Below, piece after piece: positions 25,201-64,000 of a stretch of DNA of 64,000 nucleotides. Below the pieces are notes generated by a model. It was not told where the DNA came from, ran no database searches, and saw only the letters and a list, made by a program, of their open reading frames with translations. How positions within the stretch are numbered: the first letter of the stretch is position 1; the number at the start of each line of letters is the position of its first letter. A program made the translations under genes and the position numbers. Source of the DNA: Liolophura sinensis (Eukaryota; Mollusca; Polyplacophora; Chitonida; Chitonidae); NCBI RefSeq assembly GCF_032854445.1, contig NC_088304.1, positions 1,178,001 to 1,242,000 on the forward strand. Direction: 5' to 3'.

Positions 25201-28200
25201 CCCGTTTCTTCCACCCACAGTCATTCTAAGTACATGTATATGTTGACAAGGCCGTCACTAACTCCGACGACACTCCCTTATCTCCCACCCACAGTCATCC
25301 TAAGTACATGTATGTGTTGACAAGGCCGTCACTAACTCCGGCGACGTTCCCGTATCTTCCACCCACAGTCATTCTAAGTACATGTATATGTTGACAAGGC
25401 CGTCACTAACTCCGACGACACTCACGTATCTTCCACCCACAGTCATCCTAAGTATACGTATGTGTTGACAGGGCCGTCACTAACCCCGACGACACTCCCT
25501 TATCTCCCACCCACAGTCATCCTAAGTACATGTATGTGTTGACAAGGCCGTCACTAACTCCGGCGACACTCCCGTATCTTCCAGCCACAGTCATGCTAAG
25601 TACATGTATGTGTTGACAAGGCCGTCACTAACTCCGACGACACTCCCTTATCTTCCACCCACAGTCATCCTAAGTACACGTATGTGTTGACAAGGCCGCC
25701 ACTAACTCCGGCGACACTCCCGTATCTTCCACTCACAATAGCGACTGACGCAGTATAACTAACAAATCCTTGAGCACAGAGCGTGCATCAACCACAAATC
25801 AAGTACATAATTAAATAAGGATGTGATACTGTGGTTGCTAGCGGAATTCAGACCGTCTTCTTTGATGAAAGTTGCATGGTTTGCTTATTACTGCTCTGAT
25901 GTGGCATTTTCCCCTTACTTTTTTTGCGTTTATATCTTGGCTATTCTCTACATGCAGTGTTTTTTGTCCTCGCCGCTAGGTGGCCTGTCGATAGGCGTTC
26001 CTGGAGAGATTGGGGGGATGTTTGCTGCTCACCAGAAGTTTGGGAGAGTCAAGTGGAAGAAGCTGTTCGAACCCACGATCCGTTTGTGTGAGGAAGGTGT
26101 ACCAGTGTACAGGGCTCTGTACGCCGCCATAGAGGCCACCAAGGTCAGGGACTTCTGGAAAGATTTCCCCAAACTACGGTGAGTGCGAGTAAGTGGAGAG
26201 GGTGTAAAGGCGAATTCGCACCGGGAGGGGAAGGGGTCGTTTGTGGGTGGATCCAGAGGGTGGATATCTATGTGTGGATATGGATAGGCGGGTAGGTGTT
26301 AGTGTAGGGCCTGTTCGTATGAGTCGGTGAGTGTCTTCTGGTGAATTTATAATATTGTCTACTGATAAATACGAGTGGGTGGATACAATTTTGAGTGCTG
26401 TCGGATAGGTCCTTCGGCGGATTTATAATAGGGATGGGGTGTCTTCAGGTGGATACAGATGCTGGATGAGTGGATTTGTGGATATAAATGGGTGTGGGAA
26501 TGTCTGTGGGTGGAGACGGATGAGTGAAAGCGAACTAGTAGGTTATCTGGATGTATACGGGTGGATGGAAGTGAATGGGTAGGGGTGTTTGTTGATTGTG
26601 TCATATGGGTCACAATGGCTTATATCAAACAATGTACAGTTTACGGTATTATACATCGTCTGGGAGCATTGCTTTTGTCGATTGTCTTTCATCAGTGAGC
26701 TTCTGACGAACCCAGATACCAACGAAACATACAAAATCGGAGAAAAGATGAAGAGGCCGAAGTTAGCCGAAACGTTACGGATTATCTCGGAGGAAGGTCC
26801 AGATGCTTTCTATAATGGCTCTCTGACGAAGAATATAACTCTGGATATGCAAGAAGCGGGTAAGGTGAAGCCTTATGTCAACGTTATTATAGGTGATGTG
26901 AGCTGATTTGTTTGTATTTCTTGCAGTGAGAACATTTTATTTCTTTTTTTTTGTATTTAGCAATAGCCTTTCCACATTTTTCTTGGACGAATGAACGAAT
27001 GGATCCAACACAGCCGATGTCCCACCACCCCTTCTCGTGACAACCTTACTTTTCATTCCCTTCCCGGTGAAAGCAATTCCGACGTGATATCTACATATAC
27101 TACTTGATGGACCAATAATTTTCAAACGTATTTCATTGGAAATCGACCTGCGGATTGTCCTGGGTTTCCCCCGCTCTTCCCTGGTTTCTTCCCACCATAA
27201 TGCTACCCGCCGTCTTATAAGTGAAATATTCTTGAGTACAGTGTAAAACACCAAACAAATAAATAAAATAAAAAAATTGTACTGGGTGCAGTAATGACAT
27301 TCTCATATCTACATGCATTGTACTGGATGCAGTAATGACATTCTCATATCTACATGCATTGTACTGGGTGCAGTAATGACATTCTCATATCTACATGCAT
27401 TGTACTGGATGCAGTAATGACATTCTCAAATGTACATGCATTGTACTGGATGCAGTAATGACATTCTCATATGTACATGCATTGTACTGGGTGCAGTAAT
27501 GGCATTCTCATATCTACGTGCATTGTACTGGGTGCAGTAATGACATCCTCATATCTACGTGCATTGTACTGGGTGCAGTAATGACATTCTCATGTCTACG
27601 TGCATTGTACTGGGTGCAGTAATGACATTCTCTTATCTACGTGCATTGTACTGGGTGCAGTAATGGCATTCTCATATCTACATGCATTGTACTGGGTGCA
27701 GTAATGACATTCTCATATGTACATGCATTGTACTGGGTGCAGTAATGACATTCTCATATCTACGTGCATTGTACTGGGTGCAGTAATGACATTCTCATGT
27801 CTACGTGCATTGTACTGGGTGCAGTAATGACATTCTCTTATCTACGTGCATTGTACTGGGTGCAGTAATGACATTCTCATATGTACATGCATTGTACTGG
27901 GTGCAGTAATGACATTCTCATATCTACATGCATTGTACTGGGTGCAGTAATGACATTCTCATATTTACATTCATTGTACTGGGTGCAGTAATGACATCCT
28001 CATATCTACGTGCATTGTACTGGGTGCAGTAATGACATCCTCATATCTACGTGCATTGTACTGGGTGCAGTAATGGCATTCTCATATCTACGTGCATTGT
28101 ACTGGGTGCAGTAATGACATTCTCATATGTACATGCATTGTACTGGGTGCAGTAATGACATTCTCATATCTACGTGCATTGTACTGGGTGCAGTAATGAC

Positions 28201-31200
28201 ATTCTCATATCTACGTGCATTGTACTGGGTGCAGTAATGACATTCTCATATCTACGTGCATTGTACTGGGTGCAGTAATGACATTTTCATATCTAAGTGC
28301 ATTGTCCTGGGTGCAGTAATGACATTCTCATATCTACGTGCATTGTACTGGGTGCAGTAATGACATTCTCATATCTACATGCATTGTACTGGGTGCAGTA
28401 ATGACATTCTCATATGTACATGCATTGTACTGGGTGCAGTAATGACATTCTCATATGTACATGCATTGTACTGGGTGCAGTAATGACATTCTCATATCTA
28501 CGTGCATTGTACTGGGTGCAGTAATGACATTCTCATATGTACATGCATTGTACTGGGTGCAGTAATGACATCCTCATATCTACGTGCATTGTACTGGGTG
28601 CAGTAATGACATCCTCATATCTACGTGCATTGTACTGGGTGCAGTAATGGCATTCTCATATCTACGTGCATTGTACTGGGTGCAGTAATGACATTCTCAT
28701 ATGTACATGCATTGTACTGGGTGCAGTAATGACATTCTCATATCTACGTGCATTGTACTGGGTGCAGTAATGACATTCTCATATCTACGTGCATTGTACT
28801 GGGTGCAGTAATGACATTCTCATATCTACGTGCATTGTACTGGGTGCAGTAATGACATTTTCATATCTAAGTGCATTGTCCTGGGTGCAGTAATGACATT
28901 CTCATATCTACGTGCATTGTACTGGGTGCAGTAATGACATTCTCATATCTACATGCATTGTACTGGGTGCAGTAATGACATTCTCATATGTACATGCATT
29001 GTACTGGGTGCAGTAATGACATTCTCATATGTACATGCATTGTACTGGGTGCAGTAATGACATTCTCATATCTACGTGCATTGTACTGGGTGCAGTAATG
29101 ACATTCTCATATGTACATGCATTGTACTGGGTGCAGTAATGACATTCTCATATCTACGTGCATTGTACTGGGTGCAGTAATGACATTCTCATATCTACAT
29201 GCATTTTACTGGGTGCAGTAATGACATTCTCATATCTAAGTGCATTGTACTGGGTGCAGTAATGACATTCTCATATGTACATGCATTGTACTGGGTGCAG
29301 TAATGACATCCTCATAGCTACATGCATTGTACTGGGTGCAGTAATGACATTCTCATATGTACATGCATTGTACTGGGTGCAGTAGTGACATTCTCATATC
29401 TACATGCATTGTACTGGGTGCAGTAATGACATTCTCATATGTACATGCATTGTACTGGGTGCAGTAATGACATTCTCATATGTACATGCATTGTACTGGG
29501 TGCAGTAATGACATTCTCATATCTACGTGCATTGTACTGGGTGCAGTAATGACATTCTCATATGTACATGCATTGTACTGGGTGCAGTAATGACATTCTC
29601 ATATGTACATGCATTGTACTGGGTGCAGTAATGACATTCTCATATGTACATGCATTGTACTGGGTGCAGTAGTGACATTCTCATATCTACATGCATTGTA
29701 CTGGGTGCAGTAATGACATTCTCATATGTACATGCATTGTACTGGGTGCAGTAATGACATCTTCATATCTACGTGCATTGTACTGGGTGCAGTAATGACA
29801 TTCTCATATCTACGTGCATTGTACTGGGTGCAGTAATGACATTCTCATATGTACATGCATTGTACTGGGTGCAGTAATGACATTCTCATATCTACGTGCA
29901 TTGTACTGGGTGCAGTAATGACATTCTCATATGTACATGCATTGTACTGGGTGCAGTAATGGCATTCTCATATCTACGTGCATTGTACTGGGTGCAGTAA
30001 TGACATTCTCATATGTACATGCATTGTACTGGGTGCAGTAATGACATTCTCATATCTACGTGCATTGTACTGGGTGCAGTAATGACATTCTCATATCTAC
30101 ATGCATTGTACTGAGTGCAGTAATGACATTCTCATATGTACATGCATTGTACTGGGTGCAGTAATGACATTCTCATATCTAAGTGCATTGTACTGGGTGC
30201 AGTAATGACATCCTCATAGCTACATGCATTGTACTGGGTGCAGTAATGACATTCTCATATGTACATGCATTGTACTGGGTGCAGTAATGACATTCTCATA
30301 TCTACGTGCATTGTACTGGGTGCAGTAATGACATTCTCATATCTACGTGCATTGTACTGGGTGCAGTAATGACATTCTCATGTCTACGTGCATTGTACTG
30401 GGTGCAGTAATGACATCCTCTTATCTACGTGCATTGCACTGGGTGCAGTAATGACATTCTCATATCTACGTGCATTGTACTGGGTGCAGTAATGACATTC
30501 TCTTATCTACGTGCATTTTACTGAGTGCAGTAATGACATTCTCATATGTACATGCATTGTACTGGGTGCAGTAATGACATTCTCATATCTACATGCATTG
30601 CTTCCTGAATTATTCTAACATATCTCCAAAAACTGAAAAAATACGCTAAGCAATGGGGAGCGAAGTGTGCCCAAATTGATAATCTATACAGTTGTGGTTC
30701 TCTTCATGGACACTCGAACGGTTCCATTTCGCCGATAAAATAGGGTGGCTAGTTTGTTGCTGTCAGAACGTCTGTTTTCTTCAAAATTTGACAGCTCACA
30801 TTTTCAGAGGACAAAGGCAAAATGGATTTACATATAATAAGTCAGACAGTTAAGTTTAGAGGTGAAATATTTACCATTACCGACATCATATGGCCAATAG
30901 GCACTTGTTCTGTGTATGAGATATAAAAAAGTGACAAGCATTTAGGTGGTACATTTATATCTGGATATGCGCAACAGGGCATTCAGCTCCACAAGATCAT
31001 CAGACTCTCGGCAACTCTACCATCTCAGGAAGCACCAACTTCAACACGAATTTACAAGTTTCTCAAGAAATAAAACCTCTGTTCTGACATATTAACAAAA
31101 AGGAGCGAGCGGTTGTTTTCGGTGTTATCCCCCACCCCACCCCATTATTTTCATAATGGTATATCAGAAAAGAAATAGCAGGTAATATGCCATGTTCAAA

Positions 31201-34200
31201 TAACCTAGATAATGTACAGCAGACGGGAGTTGTTCACTGTTTGAGAACGAAGGGCCAGGGTCAGGCCTCCGGAGTTCTCTAGGAGTGTGAACAGCTCCCG
31301 TCTACTGTGCATTATCTAGGGGATTTGAACATGGCAAACTCCGATTTATTTCTTAAATGATATCTAGTGTCTTTCAGTGGAAATTATTAAATTATGCGTG
31401 TATGCTCTGACTTTCACATGTATTACCTCATGCAAATATGTTTCATGTTCATTAACTGGATGATTTAATAACTTTCTCGCATATTTCTCACACTAACCCA
31501 TCGCTGACCAGAACTACTTTTCGCCACCCACAGGAGGTATAATCACAGCTGAGGACCTAGGGAGGTACACAGTGCGCGAGGAATCTCCCGTCAGCTACAA
31601 GATGCGAAATGGACTCACCATCTTCTCCTCGCGTCCCCCATCAAGTGGACTCATCATCTCCTATATACTTAACATACTAGACGGTGAGATATACTATAAT
31701 TGCCTACACCTATCTTTTTGTGCGCAAATTTATGTGTTAATATTGGCCTATGAACCAAGATGGCGTGGCTAACGTCTGCATTTCCTTTGTGCAGGATATA
31801 ACATGACTCAACCTGACGTGGCTAACATCTATATTTCCTTTGTGCAAGATATAACATCACCCAGGCTGACGTCTATATTTCCTTTGTGCAAGATATAACA
31901 TCACTCAGGCTGACGTCTATATTTCTTTTGTGCAGGATATAACATCACCCAGGCTGACGTCTATATTTCCTTTGTGCAAGATATAGCATCACTCAGGCTG
32001 ACGTCTGTATTACCTTTGTGCAGGATATAAAATCACTCAGGCTGACGTCTATATTTCCTTTGTGCAGGATATAGCATCACTCAGGCTGACGTCTGTATTT
32101 CATTTGTGCAAGACATAGCATCACTCAAGCTGACATGCCTCACGTCTATATAAAGTAGCAGGATATAGCTTTACCCAAGCTGATTTGGCTGACGTCTTTG
32201 TTTCCCTTGTGCAGAATATAGCTTTACCCGGACTGATTTGGCTGACGTCTCTGTTTCCCTTGTGCAGAATATAGCTTTACCCGGACTGATTTGGCTGACG
32301 TCTCTGTTTGCCTTAAGCAGAATATAGCTTTACCCAGGCTGATGTGGCTGACGTCTCTGTTTCCCTTGAGCAGGATATATCTTTACACAGGCTGATTTGG
32401 CTGACGTCTCTGTTTCCCTTGAACAGGATATAGCTTTACCCAGGCTGATTTCGCTAACGTTTCTATTTCCGTTGTGCAGGATACAACCTTACACAAGCTG
32501 ACGTGGCTGACGTGAATAGCACGGTTCTGACCTATCACAGAATTGTTGAAGCGTTCAAATTTGGATACGCTAAGAGAACGAACCTTGGAGATGAGCTATT
32601 TTTAGGGCATGTGACAAAGGTAAGCATAGTCATACAGTAAGTCGAACAGACAACGGCGATCTATTTAAAACTAAAGAGTTTGATTTCTCCCAAAAGAAAT
32701 TAATAATTTTAAGAAAATTTCTGCACTGATTTAATTTTTTTTTAAATGATGACCCCCAAAAGCTAATGAATAATGAATACCTAAATAAATAAATATTGTG
32801 ACAAATATCTCACATTTTCAACACTGGCTGTCAAACTATAGGCTTGGAATATAATGAACCTTGGCAAGTGGGATATGGTGTAGTAGAATATTTAAGGCGT
32901 TCTTAATAATAATGAAGTGAATGCCGATAATTGCGGGATTCCCTTAGTCAATTCATTCTCAAATCCCACCATCCTTAAGCAGCTTTAAAGGCAAAGACAA
33001 CACTAATGTGAAATATATATATATATCAGACGAAAAACACTGTCCAGAAAAATAGTTCGATTTATTATTATATTTTTAATTACATTTATTTTATTCTAGT
33101 AAAATCGATACGAAACTATGGATTGTACGGTGTCAATTTCTGATCAAATTGGAACTAATGACGTTACATAAGGTTTTTGCTGCTGAACACACACTGCTAG
33201 ATTTCATCATTAAGTATGCATATATACATATAGATGTATGAATATATTCGCCGAATAGGCCTTAAACGAACTATTTCAAGCAGAAAATGTGACGTCACAG
33301 ATACATTCTGGTTTTAAAACCATTCTATTCTATTGGAAAAATTCTAAACTAATAACTTGAACTATTTTCCTGTACAGTGTTTAGTGGTCTTTCCTGTGAT
33401 ATATACTTCATTTCAGCGATTTCTTTGTCCTTAAGTTAAGTTTCGACAAATAGTACCGTTTAAACAATGTTTTTTTACATGATGTATATAGGATCATACG
33501 GCTGTTAATATACGGCTTTTGTTTATAGCTTCAAAGGATGCGTGAAACGCTGGGTTTTTATTGGGTTGTTATAATACAAGATATAGTTTGTGGTTTAACA
33601 TATAGGCCACATCATAGTTTTCTTGATGCGTAAAAAATGCTTTAAGCAACAATTTTCCTAAGGCCAGTCGAGAAAGTAGGTTGCTGTGGTTAGGTCAACA
33701 ATGATAGCGGTAAAAAACACCTTAGTGAGAGAACTCGAATTTGTAGCGCTTTGCTAGTCCTGCGCTCCCATTAAGCTCATTGATGACGTCATTTCTGAAT
33801 ATTTCCGAGCATTGACAGAAAATATGCGTAAATTAGAGGGGCTAGTAAGAAATATAAATCATGCCTCAAAAACGGAACAAAATGTCTCATGTTTTTATCA
33901 TATCTTCGGTCATGTTTCTTAAAACCGTACTCTTCGTTTTATAATACCTTTTACATATCCTTCAAGGTGATATTACAGAAAGCATTTTGTGCAAGAGCCC
34001 TCAGTTTGCCTTCTTCATTCCGCAGATGATCGAGAATTTGACCTCATCAGATGTGGGGGACAGCATAAGAGCCCGGATCACAGATGACAGGACGCACAAT
34101 TACACGTATTACGAACCGGTGTTTGCTGAAGAACCTGACCTAATGGGTACCGCCCACCTGTCAGTCATGGCTGCGAATGGAGATGCCGTGTCTGTCACCA

Positions 34201-37200
34201 GTACCATCAACTTATAGTAAGTTATAATTTGGGTACCGCCCACCTGTCAGTAATGGCTGCGAACGGACATGCCGTGTAGTTCACCAGTAAAATGAACTTG
34301 TAGTAAGTTATAATTTAGGTACCGCCCACCTGTCAGTAATGGCTGCGAGTGGACATGCCGTGTCGTTCACCAGTAAAATGAACTTATGGTAAGTTATAAT
34401 TTGGGTACCGCCCACCTGTCAGTAACGGCTGCGAGTGGACATGCCGTGTCGTTCACCAGTAAAATGAACTCATGGTAAGTTATAATTTGGGTACCGCCCA
34501 TCTGTCAGTAATGGCTGCGAGTGGACATGCCGTGTCGTTCACCAGTAAAATGAACTTATAGTAAGTTATAATTTGGGTACCGCCCACCTGTCAGTCATGG
34601 CTGCGAATGGAGATGCCGTGTCTTTCACCAGTACCATCAGCTTATAGTAAGTCATAATTTAGGTACCGCACATATGTCAGTTTTGGCTGCGAATGGAGAT
34701 GCTGTTTTGGCCACGAGTACCATCAGCTTGTTATAAGCCGTAATTTGGGAAGCGCCCACCTGTCAGTCATGGCTGCGAATGGACATGCAGTGTCTGTCAA
34801 CAGTACCATCAATTTACGGTAAGTTATAATTTGGGTACTGCCCACCTGTCAGTTTTGGCTGCGAATGGACATGCCGTGTCGATCACCAGTACCATCAGCT
34901 TGTTATAAGTCGTAGTTTGGAAGCGCCCACCTGTCAGTCATGGCTGCGAATGGACATGCCGTGTAGTTCACCAGTAAAATGAACTTGTAGTAAGTTATAA
35001 TTTGGGTACCGCCCACCTGTCAGTAATGGCTGCGAGTGGACATGCCGTGTCGTTCACCAGTAAAATGAACTTATGGTAAGTTATAATTTGGGTACCGCCC
35101 ACCTGTCAGTAACGGCTGCGAGTGGACATGCCGTGTCGTTCACCAGTAAAATGAACTCATGGTAAGTTATAATTTGGGTACCGCCCATCTGTCAGTAATG
35201 GCTGCGAGTGGACATGCCGTGTCGTTCACCAGTAAAATGAACTTATAGTAAGTTATAATTTGGGTACCGCCCACCTGTCAGTCATGGCTGCGAATGGAGA
35301 TGCCGTGTCTTTCACCAGTACCATCAGCTTATAGTAAGTCATAATTTAGGTACCGCACATATGTCAGTTTTGGCTGCGAATGGAGATGCTGTTTTGGCCA
35401 CGAGTACCATCAGCTTGTTATAAGCCGTAATTTGGGAAGCGCCCACCTGTCAGTCATGGCTGCGAATGGACATGCAGTGTCTGTCAACAGTACCATCAAT
35501 TTACGGTAAGTTATAATTTGGGTACTGCCCACCTGTCAGTTTTGGCTGCGAATGGACATGCCGTGTCGATCACCAGTACCATCAGCTTGTTATAAGTCGT
35601 AGTTTGGGAAGCGCCCACCTGTCAGTCATGGCTGCGAATGGACTTGCCGTGTCTGTCACCAGTACCATCAACTTACGGTAAGTTATAATTTGGGTACTGC
35701 CCACCTGTCAGTCATGGCTGCGAATGGAGATGCCGTGTCTATCAACAGTACCATCAACTTACGGTAAGTTATAATTTGGGTACCGCACATATGTGAGTTT
35801 TGGCTGCGAATGGAGATGCTGTTTTGGTCACGAGTACCATCAGCTTGATATAAGTCGTAATTTGGGAAGCGCCCATCTGTCAGTCATGGCTGCGAATGGA
35901 GATGCCGTGTCTGTCAACAGTACCATCGACTTATAATAAGTCATAATTCAGGTACCGCACATATGTGAATTTTGGCTGCGAATGGAGATGCTGTTTTGGT
36001 CACGAGTACCATCAGCTTGTTATAAGTCGTAATTTGGGAAGCGCCCACCTGTCAGTCATGGCTGCGAATGGACTTGCTGTGTCTGTCAACAGTACCATCA
36101 ATTTACGGTAAGTTATAATTTGGGTACCGCCCACCTGTCGGTCATGGCTGCGAATGGACATGCCGTGTCGTTCACCGGTAAAATGAACTTGTGATAAGTC
36201 ATAATTTAGGTACCGCCCACCTTTCAGTCTTGACTGTGAATGGAGATGCCGTGTCGATCACCAGAGCTATCAACTTATATTAAGTCATAATTTAGGTACC
36301 ACCCACCAGTAAGTTATGGCTGCAAATGGACATGCTGTTTTAGTCACCAGAACCATCAACGTATAGTCGTAACCTGGGTACCGCCCATCTGTCAATAATG
36401 GCTGCAAATGGGGATGTCGTGTCGGTCACCAGCACTAGTAGGTAGGTCGGCTTGTAGTAGGTTAAAGACCCTGAACGTTTTAAATTCGAATTCACGTTAG
36501 CGTTACAACAATGTGTGAATGACCATGGTTACGTATCACAATAACTCATATCAGTTTTATTAAATTTCCCATCGGTGTCATTATCACAATTTGAAAGTAG
36601 TTTTCGAAACGTTTATTCTGGACTTATTATTCTGCCTACAACACTGGACAGGTGCAATGACAAGCATGTAACTAACTCCATTGTAATTGTCTAAAATATT
36701 TAGAACTTATCATTAATGTTTGCTCTTTGCCAGTATAGAAGCGTTTTACTTTAAACATCGGTCACAAATGACTCTCCATGGAAATGCATTACCGTGGTTG
36801 AAAAAGCGTTGTATCTTTAAACGCCATATTGAAATGTCCCAATGGTAAGCAGTGAATCTAAATTTCGCCCTCTTCTGCTTATTCACAGTTTTGGTTCTAA
36901 AGTAGTGGGCTCTAGAACAGGTATTGTGTTTAATAACGAGATGGACGATTTCTCCACGCCCGGTCAGAACAACGCCTTCAACCTTCCGCCCTCTCCGGCC
37001 AATTTCATCCGGCCTGGAAAGCGCCCCCTATCCTCTATGTCACCCACTATCTTCGTGGACAAGGACGGGATAGTCCGGCTGGTGGCCGGGGCCTCCGGGG
37101 GGTCGCAGATTACCACAACCGTAGCCTGGGTAACACTTTTTGTTAATTCTTGTAAGGATAGAATGCTTCATGTCCCAGAGCCCGTATTTATCACGTAAAA

Positions 37201-58545: not shown

Positions 58546-58642
58546 GTAAGTGAAAGTTAAGAATAAACACTGATAACTTCTGATGCATCTGAAATTTTTA
58601 ATAAAATTTTGAATTAAGGGAATGAAATGTGCATTCCGTACT

Positions 58643-61600
58643 CATGCTATCTTTTACTGAGGAGATCAAGTCGCCTCTGCCTGCCAGAAAGTCATACAGA
58701 ATGGTTTACTGATTCATGCTATCTTTTACTAAGGAGATCAAGTGGTCTCTGCCTGCCAGAAAGTCATACAGAATGGTTTACTGATTCATGCTATCTTTTA
58801 CTGAGGAGATCAAGTGGTCTCTGCCTGCCAGAAAGTCGTACAGAACGGTTTACTGATTCATGCTATCTTTTACCGAGGAGATCAAGTGGTCTCTGCCTGC
58901 CAGAAAGTCGTACAGAATGGTTTACTGATTCATGCTATCTTTTACTGAGGAGATCAAGTGGTCTCTGCCTGCCAGAAAGTCGTACAGAATGGTTTACTGA
59001 TTCATGCTATCTTTTACTGAGGAGATCAAGTGGTCTCTGCCTGCCAGAAAGTCGTACAGAATGGTTTACTGATTCATGCTATCTTTTACTGAGGAGATCA
59101 AGTGGTCTCTGCCGGCCAGAAGGTCGTACAGAACGGTTTAGTGATTCATGCTATCTTTTACTGAGGAGATCAAGTGACCTCTGCCTGCCAGAAAGTCATA
59201 CAGAAGGGTTTAGTGATTCGTGCTATCTTTTACTGAGGAGATCAAGTGGTCTCTGCCTGCCAGAAAGTCGTACAGGATGGTTTACTGATTCATGCTATCT
59301 TTTACCGAGGAGATCCAGTGGTCTCTGCCTGCCAGAAAGTCGTACAGAATGGTTTAGTGATTCTTGGTATCTTTTACTGAGGAGATCAAGTGGTCTCTGC
59401 CTGCCAGAAAGTCGTACAGAATGGTTTAGTGATTCATGCTATCTTTTACTGAGGAGATCCAGTGGTCTCTGCCTGCCAGAAAGTCGTACAGAATGGTTTA
59501 GTGATTCATGCTATCTTTTACTGAGGAGATCCAGTGGTCTCTGCCTGCCAGAAAGTCGTACAGAATGGTTTAGTGATTCATGCTATCTTTTACTGAGGAG
59601 ATCAAGTGGTCTCTGCCTGCCAGAAAGTCATACAGAATGGTTTAGTGATTCATGCTATCTTTTACTGAGGAGATCAAGTGGTCTCTGCCTGCCAGAAAGT
59701 CGTACAGAATGGTTTAGTGATTCATGCTATCTTTTACTGAGGAGATCAAGTGGTCTCTGCCTGCCAGAAAGTCGTACAGAATGGTTTAGTGATTCATGCT
59801 ATCTTTTACTCAGGAGATCCAGTGGTCTCTGCCTGCCAGAAAGTCATACAGAATGGTTTAGTGATTCATGCTATCTTTTACTGAGGAGATCCAGTGGTCT
59901 CTGCCTGCCAGAAAGTCGTACAGAACGGTTTACTGATTCATGCTATCTTTTACTAAGGAGATCAAGTGGTCTCTGCCTGCCGGAAAGTCATACAGAACGG
60001 TTTAGTGATTCATGCTATCTTTTACTGAGGAGATCCAGTGGTGTCTGCCTGCCAGAAAGTCGTACAGAATGGTTTAGTGATTCTTGGTATCTTTTACTGA
60101 GGAGATCAAGTGGTCTCTGCCTGCCAGAAAGTCATACAGAATGGTTTAGTGATTCATGCTATCTTTTACTGAGGAGATCCAGTGGTCTCTGCCTGCCAGA
60201 AAGTCGTACAGAATGGTTTAGTGATTCATGCTATCTTTTACTGAGGAGATCCAGTGGTCTCTGCCTGCCAGAAAGTCGTACAGAATGGTTTAGTGATTCA
60301 TGCTATCTTTTACTGAGGAGATCAAGTGGTCTCTGCCTGCCAGAAAGTCATACAGAATGGTTTAGTGATTCATGCTATCTTTTACTGAGGAGATCAAGTG
60401 GTCTCTGCCTGCCAGAAAGTCGTACAGAATGGTTTAGTGATTCATGCTATCTTTTACTGAGGAGATCAAGTGGTCTCTGCCTGCCAGAAAGTCATACAGA
60501 ATGGTTTAGTGATTCATGCTATCTTTTACTCAGGAGATCCAGTGGTCTCTGCCTGCCAGAAGGTCGTACAGAACGGTTTAGTGATTCATGCTATCTTTTA
60601 CTGAGGAGATCAAGTGACCTCTGCCTGCCAGAAAGTCATACAGAAGGGTTTAGTGATTCGTGCTATCTTTTACTGAGGAGATCAAGTGGTCTCTGCCTGC
60701 CAGAAAGTCATACAGAATGGTTTACTGATTCATGCTATCTTTTACCGAGGAGATCCAGTGGTCTCTGCCTGCCAGAAAGTCGTACAGAATGGTTTAGTGA
60801 TTCTTGGTATCTTTTACTGAGGAGATCAAGTGGTCTCTGCCTGCCAGAAAGTCGTACAGAATGGTTTAGTGATTCATGCTATCTTTTACTGAGGAGATCC
60901 AGTGGTCTCTGCCTGCCAGAAAGTCGTACAGAATGGTTTAGTGATTCATGCTATCTTTTACTGAGGAGATCCAGTGGTCTCTGCCTGCCAGAAAGTCGTA
61001 CAGAATGGTTTAGTGATTCATGCTATCTTTTACTGAGGAGATCAAGTGGTCTCTGCCTGCCAGAAAGTCGTACAGAATGGTTTAGTGATTCATGCTATCT
61101 TTTACTGAGGAGATCAAGTGGTCTCTGCCTGCCAGAAAGTCGTACAGAATGGTTTAGTGATTCATGCTATCTTTTACTGAGGAGATCAAGTGGTCTCTGC
61201 CTGCCAGAAAGTCGTACAGAATGGTTTAGTGATTCATGCTATCTTTTACTCAGGAGATCCAGTGGTCTCTGCCTGCCAGAAAGTCATACAGAATGGTTTA
61301 GTGATTCATGCTATCTTTTACTGAGGAGATCCAGTGGTCTCTGCCTGCCAGAAAGTCGTACAGAACGGTTTACTGATTCATGCTATCTTTTACTAAGGAG
61401 ATCAAGTGGTCTCTGCCTGCCGGAAAGTCATACAGAACGGTTTAGTGATTCATGCTATCTTTTACTGAGGAGATCCAGTGGTGTCTGCCTGCCAGAAAGT
61501 TGTACAGAACGGTTTACTGATTCATGCTATCTTTTACTAAGGAGATCAAGTGGTCTCTGCCTGCCGGACAGTCATACAGAATGGTTTACTGATTCATGCT

Positions 61601-64000
61601 ATCTTTTACTGAGGAGATCCAGTGGTCTCTGCCTGCCAGAAAGTCGTACAGAATGGTTTACTGATTCATGCTATCTTTTACTGAGGAGATCAAGTGGTCT
61701 CTGCCTGCCGGAAAGTCATACAGTATGGTTTACTGATTCATGCTATCTTTTACTGAGGAGATCCAGTGGTCTCTGCCTGCCAGAAAGTCGTACAGAATGG
61801 TTTAGTGATTCATGCTATCTTTTACTGAGGAGATCAAGTGGTCTCTGCCTGCCAGAAAGTCGTACAGAATGGTTTAGTGATTCATGGTATCTTTGACTAA
61901 GGAGATCCAGTGGTCTCTGCCTGCCAGAAAGTCGTACAGAATGGTTTAGTGATTCATGCTATCTTTTACTGAGGAGATCCAGTGGTCTCTGCCTGCCATA
62001 AAGTCGTACAGAGTGGTTTACTGATTCATGCTATCTTTTACTGAGGAGATCCAGTGGTCTCTGCCTGCCAGAAAGTCGTACAGAACGGTTTACTGATTCA
62101 TGCTATCTTTTACTGAGGAGATCAAGTGGTCTCTGCCTGCCAGAAAGTCGTACAGAATGGTTTAGTGATTCATGCTATCTTTTACTGAGGAGATCAAGTG
62201 GTCTCTGCCTGCCAGAAAGTCATACAGAATGGTTTAGTGATTCATGCTATCTTTTACTGAGGAGATCAAGTGGTCTCTGCCTACCAGAAAGTCATACAGA
62301 ATGGTTTAGTGATTCATGCTATCTTTTACTGAGGAGATCCAGTGGTGTCTGCCTGCCAGAAAGTCGTACAGAATGGTTTAGTGATTCATGCTATCTTTTA
62401 CTAAGGAGATCAAGTGGTCTCTGCCTGCCAGAAAGTCGTACAGAATGGTTTAGTGATTCATGCTATCTTTTACTGAGGAGATCCACTGGTTTCTGCCTGC
62501 CAGAAAGTCATACAGAATGGTTTACTGATTCATGCTATCTTTTACTGAGGAGATCAAGTGGTCTCTGCCTGCCAGAAAGTCATACAGAATGGTTTAGTGA
62601 TTCATGCTATCTTTTACTGAGGAGATCAAGTGGTCTCTGCCTACCAGAAAGTCATACAGAATGGTTTAGTGATTCATGCTATCTTTTACTGAGGAGATCC
62701 AGTGGTGTCTGCCTGCCAGAAAGTCGTACAGAATGGTTTAGTGATTCATGCTATCTTTTACTAAGGAGATCAAGTGGTCTCTGCCTGCCAGAAAGTCGTA
62801 CAGAATGGTTTAGTGATTCATGCTATCTTTTACTGAGGAGATCAAGTGGTCTCTGCCTGCCAGAAAGTCATACAGAATGGTTTAGTGATTCATGCTATCT
62901 TTTACTAAGGAGATCAAGTGGTCTCTGCCTGCCAGAAAGTCATACAGAATGGTTTACTGATTCATGCTATCTTTTACTGAGGAGATCCACTGGTTTCTGC
63001 CTGCCAGAAAGTCATACAGAATGGTTTAGTGATTCATGCTATCTTTTACTGAGGAGATCAAGTGGTCTCTGCCTGCCAGAAAGTCATACAGAATGGTTTA
63101 GTGATTCATGCTATCTTTTACTAAGGAGATCAAGTGGTCTCTGCCTGCCAGAAAGTCATACAGAATGGTTTAGTGATTCATGCTATCTTTTACTGAGGAG
63201 ATCCAGTGGTCTCTGCCTACCAGAAAGTCGTACAGAATGGTTTAGTGATTCATGCTATCTTTTACTGAGGAGATCCAGTGGTCTCTGCCTGCCAGAAAGT
63301 CGTACAGAATGGTTTAGTGATTCATGCTATCTTTTACTGAGGAGCTCCAGTGGTCTCTGCCTGCCGGAAAGTCATACAGAATGGTTTAGTGATTCATGCT
63401 ATCTTTTACTGAGGAGATCCAGTGGTCTCTGCCTGCCAGAAAGTCGTGCAGAATGGTTTAGTGATTCATGCTATCTTTTACTGAGGAGATCCAGTGGTCT
63501 CTGCCTGCCAGAAAGTCGTGCAGAATGGTTTGGTGATTCATGGTATCTTTTACTGAGGAGATCCAGTGGTCTCTGCCTGCCAGAAAGTCATACAGAATGG
63601 TTTAGTGATTCATGGTATCTTTTACTGAGGAGATCCAGTGGTCTCTGCCTGCCAGAAAGTCGTACAGAATGGTTTAGTGATTCATGGTATCTTTTACTGA
63701 GGAGATCCAGTGGTCTCTGCCTGCCAGAAAGTCGTACAGAATGGTTTAGTGATTCATGGTATCTTTTACTGAGGAGATCCAGTGGTCTCTGCCTGCCAGA
63801 AAGTCATACAGAATGGTTTAGTGATTCATGGTATCTTTTACTGAGGAGATCCAGTGGTCTCTGCCTGCCAGAAAGTCGTACAGAATGGTTTAGTGATTCA
63901 TGCTATCTTTTACTGAGGAGATCCAGTGGTCTCTGCCTGCCAGAAAGTCGTACAGAATGGTTTAGTGATTCATGCTATCTTTTACTGAGGAGATCCAGTG
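58643..64000. repeat. 72-bp satellite in PELO intron 7, about 74 copies, runs off the end
   Basis: Unit: TCATGCTATCTTTTACTGAG, GAGATCAAGTGGTCTCTGCC, TGCCAGAAAGTCGTACAGAA, TGGTTTAGTGAT. Higher-order structure: rare variants recur at 720 bp (TTCTTGGTAT at about 59363, 60083, 60803) and 1440 bp (the AGTGACCTCTGCC unit at about 59173 and 60613). Another pair recurs at 360 bp (CTACCAGAAAG at 62281 and 62641). An open frame of 1089 codons (58627-61896) gives a 24-residue repeat. It ends when one unit mutates TTTTAC to TTTGAC, creating TGA. The frame is not in phase-supported continuity with PELO exon 7. Replacement changes (His/Arg, Ser/Thr) are as free as silent ones, so it is not read as a gene. 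Confidence 0.95.

Follow-up and report, generated by a model that had tools for sequence, protein, structure and literature searches.

Tandem copies of an exon end and its splice donor in an intron of a chiton gamma-glutamyltransferase gene

In a stretch of 64,000 nucleotides from contig C10 (1178001-1242000) of the chiton Liolophura sinensis (hereafter, the window), the end of a gamma-glutamyltransferase (GGT) exon and its 5' splice site are repeated in tandem through most of the following intron. We think it probable, at roughly 0.8, that this array is a boundary minisatellite of the kind described in lancelets as mirages, that it is tolerated, and that it is close to silent. Mirages are minisatellites of intron-exon boundaries, found in the lancelet globins BflGb6 and BflGb9; both boundaries may be affected, many but not all units retain splice signals, and RT-PCR suggests regular splicing (PMC3087553). 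PGBD5 is a further lancelet case, reported with citation of Adh and troponin C (PMC3902484), and splicing is reported to be undisturbed by mirages (PMC3087553, PMC3902484). What we describe is a known phenomenon now seen in another animal group; it recurs in the chiton genome, and nothing so far points to special seeding or to a function.

The features on which the argument rests are the following.

34026..34216, plus strand: GGT exon 5' of the array; its final 71 nt (34146-34216) make up the exonic portion of unit 1 (PF01019 and alignment to human GGT1)
34146..34231, plus strand: unit 1, with 71 nt of exon and 15 nt of intron
34217..34222, plus strand: genuine donor GTAAGT (ATA/GTAAGT, the slash marking the junction); the GGT paralogs L002 and L003 have their donor at the same position
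34232..36440, plus strand: 26 intronic copies of the unit, the final two decayed (TRF and hand-cut alignment)
34232..34918, plus strand: eight-unit block, units 2-9, source or copy of a later duplication (identical run at offset +687)
34919..35606, plus strand: second eight-unit block, units 10-17 (unit identity and identical run)
36889..37129, plus strand: next GGT exon (PF01019 positions 351-432; boundaries read from sequence)

The array-bearing exon, numbered 9 in a preliminary description of this DNA, is the sixth PF01019-coding exon that can be placed in the window, and is flanked by the acceptor ccgcag and the donor GTAAGT, both read from the sequence. Joined to the next exon, it matches PF01019 as gamma-glutamyltransferase (E=6e-51). 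The intron between them, 34217-36888, consists mostly of array. The second codon of the repeat unit aligns with the first residue of the human GGT1 light chain, the catalytic threonine. The preliminary description had the unit start at the threonine codon itself; it begins one codon earlier.

TRF reports a period of 86, 26.7 copies and a score of 2707 at 34144-36432. Cut by hand, the array comprises 27 units of ~86 bp at 34146-36440, the exon end being unit 1, in agreement with the preliminary description of about 26 copies built from the exon end and its donor in the following intron. Unit 1 joins the final 71 nt of the exon to 15 nt of intron, namely GTAAGT and the 9 bases that follow it. 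As in mirages, the repeat unit thus spans the exon-intron boundary together with its splice site, and the genuine boundary forms the terminal unit of the array. Identity to unit 1 is 79-95% for units 2-25 and falls to 77% and 72% in the terminal units 26 and 27. Chance similarity to the exon end can be dismissed: the array matches the 71-nt exon end at 69/71 positions, compared with 35/71 for the best match in the rest of the window on either strand and a maximum of 33/71 when the array was shuffled by mononucleotides 20 times. Searching the 609-Mb genome with the whole array gave a single match and no copies at further genomic places; this search passes over very common words. Within that limit, the repeat is not a general satellite, the other outcome against which the preliminary description had set its reading. 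Tandem repetition is common in the window (1-64000), where 27 merged arrays with a period >=12 cover 19,299 of 64,000 bases, so array formation is frequent there; other arrays include one of 41 bp x 81 at 27276-30600 and one of 72 bp x 74 at 58642-64000.

The array has also changed since it was formed. An identical run of 603 bp (34318-34920) recurs at offset +687, and units 11-16 are identical to units 3-8. This bears out the suggestion that an eight-unit block (~687 bp) was later duplicated, and indicates that the duplication is recent. Turnover among the units is therefore ongoing and, together with the decayed units at the edge, is a further property shared with mirages. In a tree of the units rooted at unit 1, changes at codon positions 1, 2 and 3 require 16, 23 and 29 steps (third-position permutation p=0.07); with the two terminal units included, the figures are 21, 29 and 41 (p=0.015). 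Some branch supports of the tree are low. A third-position bias among the units, if real, would not be expected from plain decay and would speak against near-neutrality.

The intron contains a ladder of near-identical donors, as had been proposed. GT is kept at the donor position in 18/27 units and lost in 9/27, and GTAAGT is kept in 16/27. The claim that many copies keep TATAGTAAGT holds for this core but not for the full string, which occurs exactly in 5/27 units (1, 5, 6, 13 and 14). Using splice-site weights and the U1 5' end, we found that 9 copies outscore the genuine donor and 4 tie with it (the two gapped terminal units being left out), and that the predicted U1 duplex is stronger than that of the genuine donor in 9/26 copies and equal in 6. 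If donor 1 is skipped, the frame runs after a Leu straight into an in-frame TAG TAA, so only donor 1 can yield an intact protein, in line with the preliminary description. Its further argument, that decay of the frame shows the copies to be unused as exons, is weak, because 20/26 copies have no stop ahead of their own donor (6/26 have one within the exon-derived part) and the changes lean to third codon positions.

Our model suggests that the 5' splice site of the GGT exon lay by chance within a short tandem duplication, which slippage or unequal exchange would then have expanded to 26 intronic copies. The splicing machinery would use the donor nearest the exon, that of unit 1, and all the copies would depart with the intron. 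Removed in this way from the transcript, the array would be tolerated, and may persist as a near-neutral consequence of DNA that readily forms repeats. That 9/26 copies are predicted to be stronger than the genuine donor makes its silence less obvious.

Comparison with other GGT genes bears on the age of the array. A PF01019 profile search of the genome listed 32 exon-level matches, among them paralogs on C12 and at C1:89.05 Mb (L002 and L003) that have an intron at the same place as the window gene. The 86-bp array was not found in the stretches fetched for these two paralogs, where similarity to it is confined to the exon end and the first bases of the intron. An array common to the GGT family at this junction is thus ruled out for L002 and L003, and the array either postdates the split from those genes or has disappeared from them. 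Since the intron position is shared, the intron is older than the array, and we did not find a new intron bounded by duplicated sites. In a more distant GGT-like gene (L004, C1:37016300-37019500, minus strand), a single tandem duplication of that gene's exon end and donor is present (86 bp x 2.0, 92%); the equality of its unit length with that of the window array may be a coincidence.

The preliminary description implied that the array is singular. This was not the case, as the same architecture, known as mirages in lancelets, is present at other exon ends of the genome. We sampled 160 exon loci from Pfam matches, 100 in a first set and 60 in a validation set from two further families. The first set (56 P450, 4 aldehyde dehydrogenase, 29 myosin and 11 GGT) was chosen by eye and is therefore non-random, intronless and various other matches being left out; the validation set (40 kinesin, 20 ABC) took the first stop-free matches in rank order. 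The 11 GGT exons include neither the window array nor L004. The sampled stretches partly overlap but the exons differ, and none of the 27 donor-side array edges is listed under two loci. Donors were called at 152/160 loci (uncalled: L008, L031, L033, L035, L038, L102, L106 and L130), and acceptors at 83/160 under a first rule (1 spanned) and at 153/160 under a relaxed rule (2 spanned). An array was counted as spanning if it held >=6 nt of exon plus >=20 nt of intron.

By this definition, 5/152 called donors are spanned by an array (95% interval 1.1-7.5%, for a non-random exon sample): L077, L090 and L095 in the first set (3/94), and L154 and L156 in the validation set (2/58). In L077 the exon end with GTAT occurs six times, the genuine one included, and L156 has seven occurrences of its exon end and donor if up to 2 mismatches in 16 are allowed. 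In 6/7 donor arrays examined, splicing at donor 2 would introduce a stop, the exception being L095. Acceptors are spanned at 2/153 loci, L098 and L110. The former is a 12.7-copy array at a myosin exon start with 9 nt of exon, and the latter an 8.2-copy array at a kinesin exon start with 23 nt of exon. Not counted as spanning were L083, L093, L100 and L082, with little or no exon in the TRF array, and L050, with 5 nt of exon against the threshold of 6. In the last exon of a P450 gene (L038, C11:21036112-21037211), a 31-bp array covers the stop codon and the sequence after it.

L095 (C1:89052541-89053505, minus strand) is an exon of a GGT paralog in which the site homologous to the donor of the window gene reads GC. 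In its 42-bp array, the next copy lies 42 nt downstream and has GT in frame and no stop; the automatic caller picked another GT, 23 nt downstream. Judged from its sequence, L095 is possibly an exon end in motion, moved by its array.

Array starts do not single out the junction. Of the array left edges around the 152 donors, 6 lie within the final 45 nt of exon and 21 within the intron between +10 and +210, giving 6/(152x45)=8.8e-4 versus 21/(152x200)=6.9e-4 per nt (p=0.62, from few events in a non-random sample). Enrichment of array starts at exon ends was therefore not found among the 152 donors (8.8 versus 6.9 per 10,000 nt), and the near equality of the two densities reveals no special seeding or purging. 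No left edges were seen at -100 to -50 from these donors. Array detection drops as a fetched flank runs out, and this would depress the intron density. One of the six exon-end edges comes from L014, where a short repeat (18 bp x 2.1) reaches little into the intron. At acceptors, the density is lower in the exon, 2/(153x45), than in the intron, 19/(153x200) (p=0.40), and some purging of arrays may occur there.

Across the genome, ladders defined as three AGGTAAGT words, 72-102 nt start to start, gave 956 matches compared with 511 for the reversed word, while single words number 26,582 and 29,090, respectively. The ladder matches are clumped, however, and counted per array by eye on C1, among the 100 matches listed for each word, there are 17 donor-word versus 11 reversed-word arrays; we consequently do not take the excess as a sign of seeding. 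We read the 5' flanks of the 17 donor-word arrays and left out those of the 11 reversed-word arrays, so what follows is a description and not a test. Six of the 17 ladders copy the end of an exon recognised by Pfam above the cut-off: Core-2/I-branching enzyme (L171), prominin (L174), POT transporter (L175), DNA-PKcs (L176), GH31 (L179) and EGF (L180). The TRF array begins within the exon in five of these six and, in L171, just beyond the exon's own donor. L166 is similar to an annexin exon, though below the cut-off (E=9e-4), and L167, L177, L181 and L182 lie at the ends of open frames to which Pfam gave no match. L178 adjoins the 5' side of a cryptochrome exon that runs on the other strand. 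In L168 and L170 the fetched stretch is wholly or almost wholly array, and in L169, L172 and L173 no exon was seen in the 5' flank.

These observations allow other explanations of the window array to be weighed. The ladder could be functional, the extra U1-binding sites strengthening exon definition or the alternative donors cutting output via premature stops, and the retention of GTAAGT in 16/27 units and the 9/26 copies predicted to outdo the genuine donor would suit such a role. We nevertheless consider it unlikely: a third of the units (9/27) no longer have GT where the donor should be, exon ends hold array starts at no higher density than introns do, and the paralogs manage without an array, although these points bear on function only indirectly. 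We give slightly less credit still to the idea that tandem duplication starts preferentially at splice junctions, owing for instance to the AG/GT motif or to breaks linked to transcription. The twofold appearance of the AGGTAAGT ladder counts, obtained although single words are scarcer than reversed ones, and the at least 6 of 17 ladders read that copy a recognised exon end both speak for it. Against this, the excess shrinks to 17 versus 11 arrays on C1 (by eye, among the matches listed) once clumping is considered, starts are equally dense in exon ends and introns, and real donors alone should raise the count of exon-seeded ladders.

That the units are alternative exon ends or pseudo-exons under coding constraint appears very improbable. 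The 20/26 copies open up to their own donor and the third-position excess (p=0.07 or 0.015) are what such constraint would leave, but skipping donor 1 leads immediately to TAG TAA, 6/26 copies have stops in the exon-derived part, and the bias is weak and hinges on the two terminal units. Least credible of all, to the point of being negligible, is a general satellite or mobile repeat lying at the locus by chance; the genome is rich in tandem arrays, but this one has a single genomic match (very common words passed over) and its unit contains conserved GGT coding sequence. A tolerated boundary minisatellite of the mirage kind thus remains our preferred reading. We would only tentatively extend it, and think the extension rather unlikely, to a picture in which boundary minisatellites drive splice-site turnover widely in the chiton: donor or acceptor ladders might be present at thousands of junctions, position would beat strength in donor choice, and some exon ends would already be moving, L095 being a candidate.

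Compared with the lancelet cases, the host here is a mollusc, and the chiton array has 27 units of 86 bp, whereas BflGb6 has 3 or 6 units of 150-160 bp (PMC3087553). Splicing and length polymorphism were assayed in lancelets, while the chiton array is known from the sequence of one assembly. The array also recalls intron gain by tandem duplication, as in the Rogers model with AG/GT sites (cited in PMC3087553) and a potato case (PMC4974935). The likeness is that the duplicated segment carries splice signals; in the chiton, the evidence is of an existing intron that has been enlarged, not of a new one. Internal tandem repeats of human genes in segmental duplications, which are tied to exon or intron elongation and to novel introns in recent paralogs (PMC2812944), are similar in being minisatellites that modify gene structure, some at the exon-intron boundary; they concern recent paralogs, while the chiton array is a single-copy array in one gene. 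In the one open library searched, we found no earlier boundary arrays in molluscs, and the excerpts of three papers that mention molluscs (PMC3862624, PMC3296744 and PMC7931591) describe none; the last reports that large repetitive intron sections resisted assembly.

If the sampled rate holds, a few percent of chiton 5' splice sites carry natural ladders of near-identical donors, some predicted to be stronger than the real donor, and RNA reads over these ladders could test whether position or strength decides donor choice. Mirages, described in lancelets, would extend to a mollusc at a per-junction rate that fits neutral seeding.

Finally, mitochondrial COX1, which is open under the invertebrate code, gave seven matches ~15.5 kb apart on C99 and one more on C632. 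From this spacing, C99 is probably a head-to-tail concatenated mitochondrial contig.
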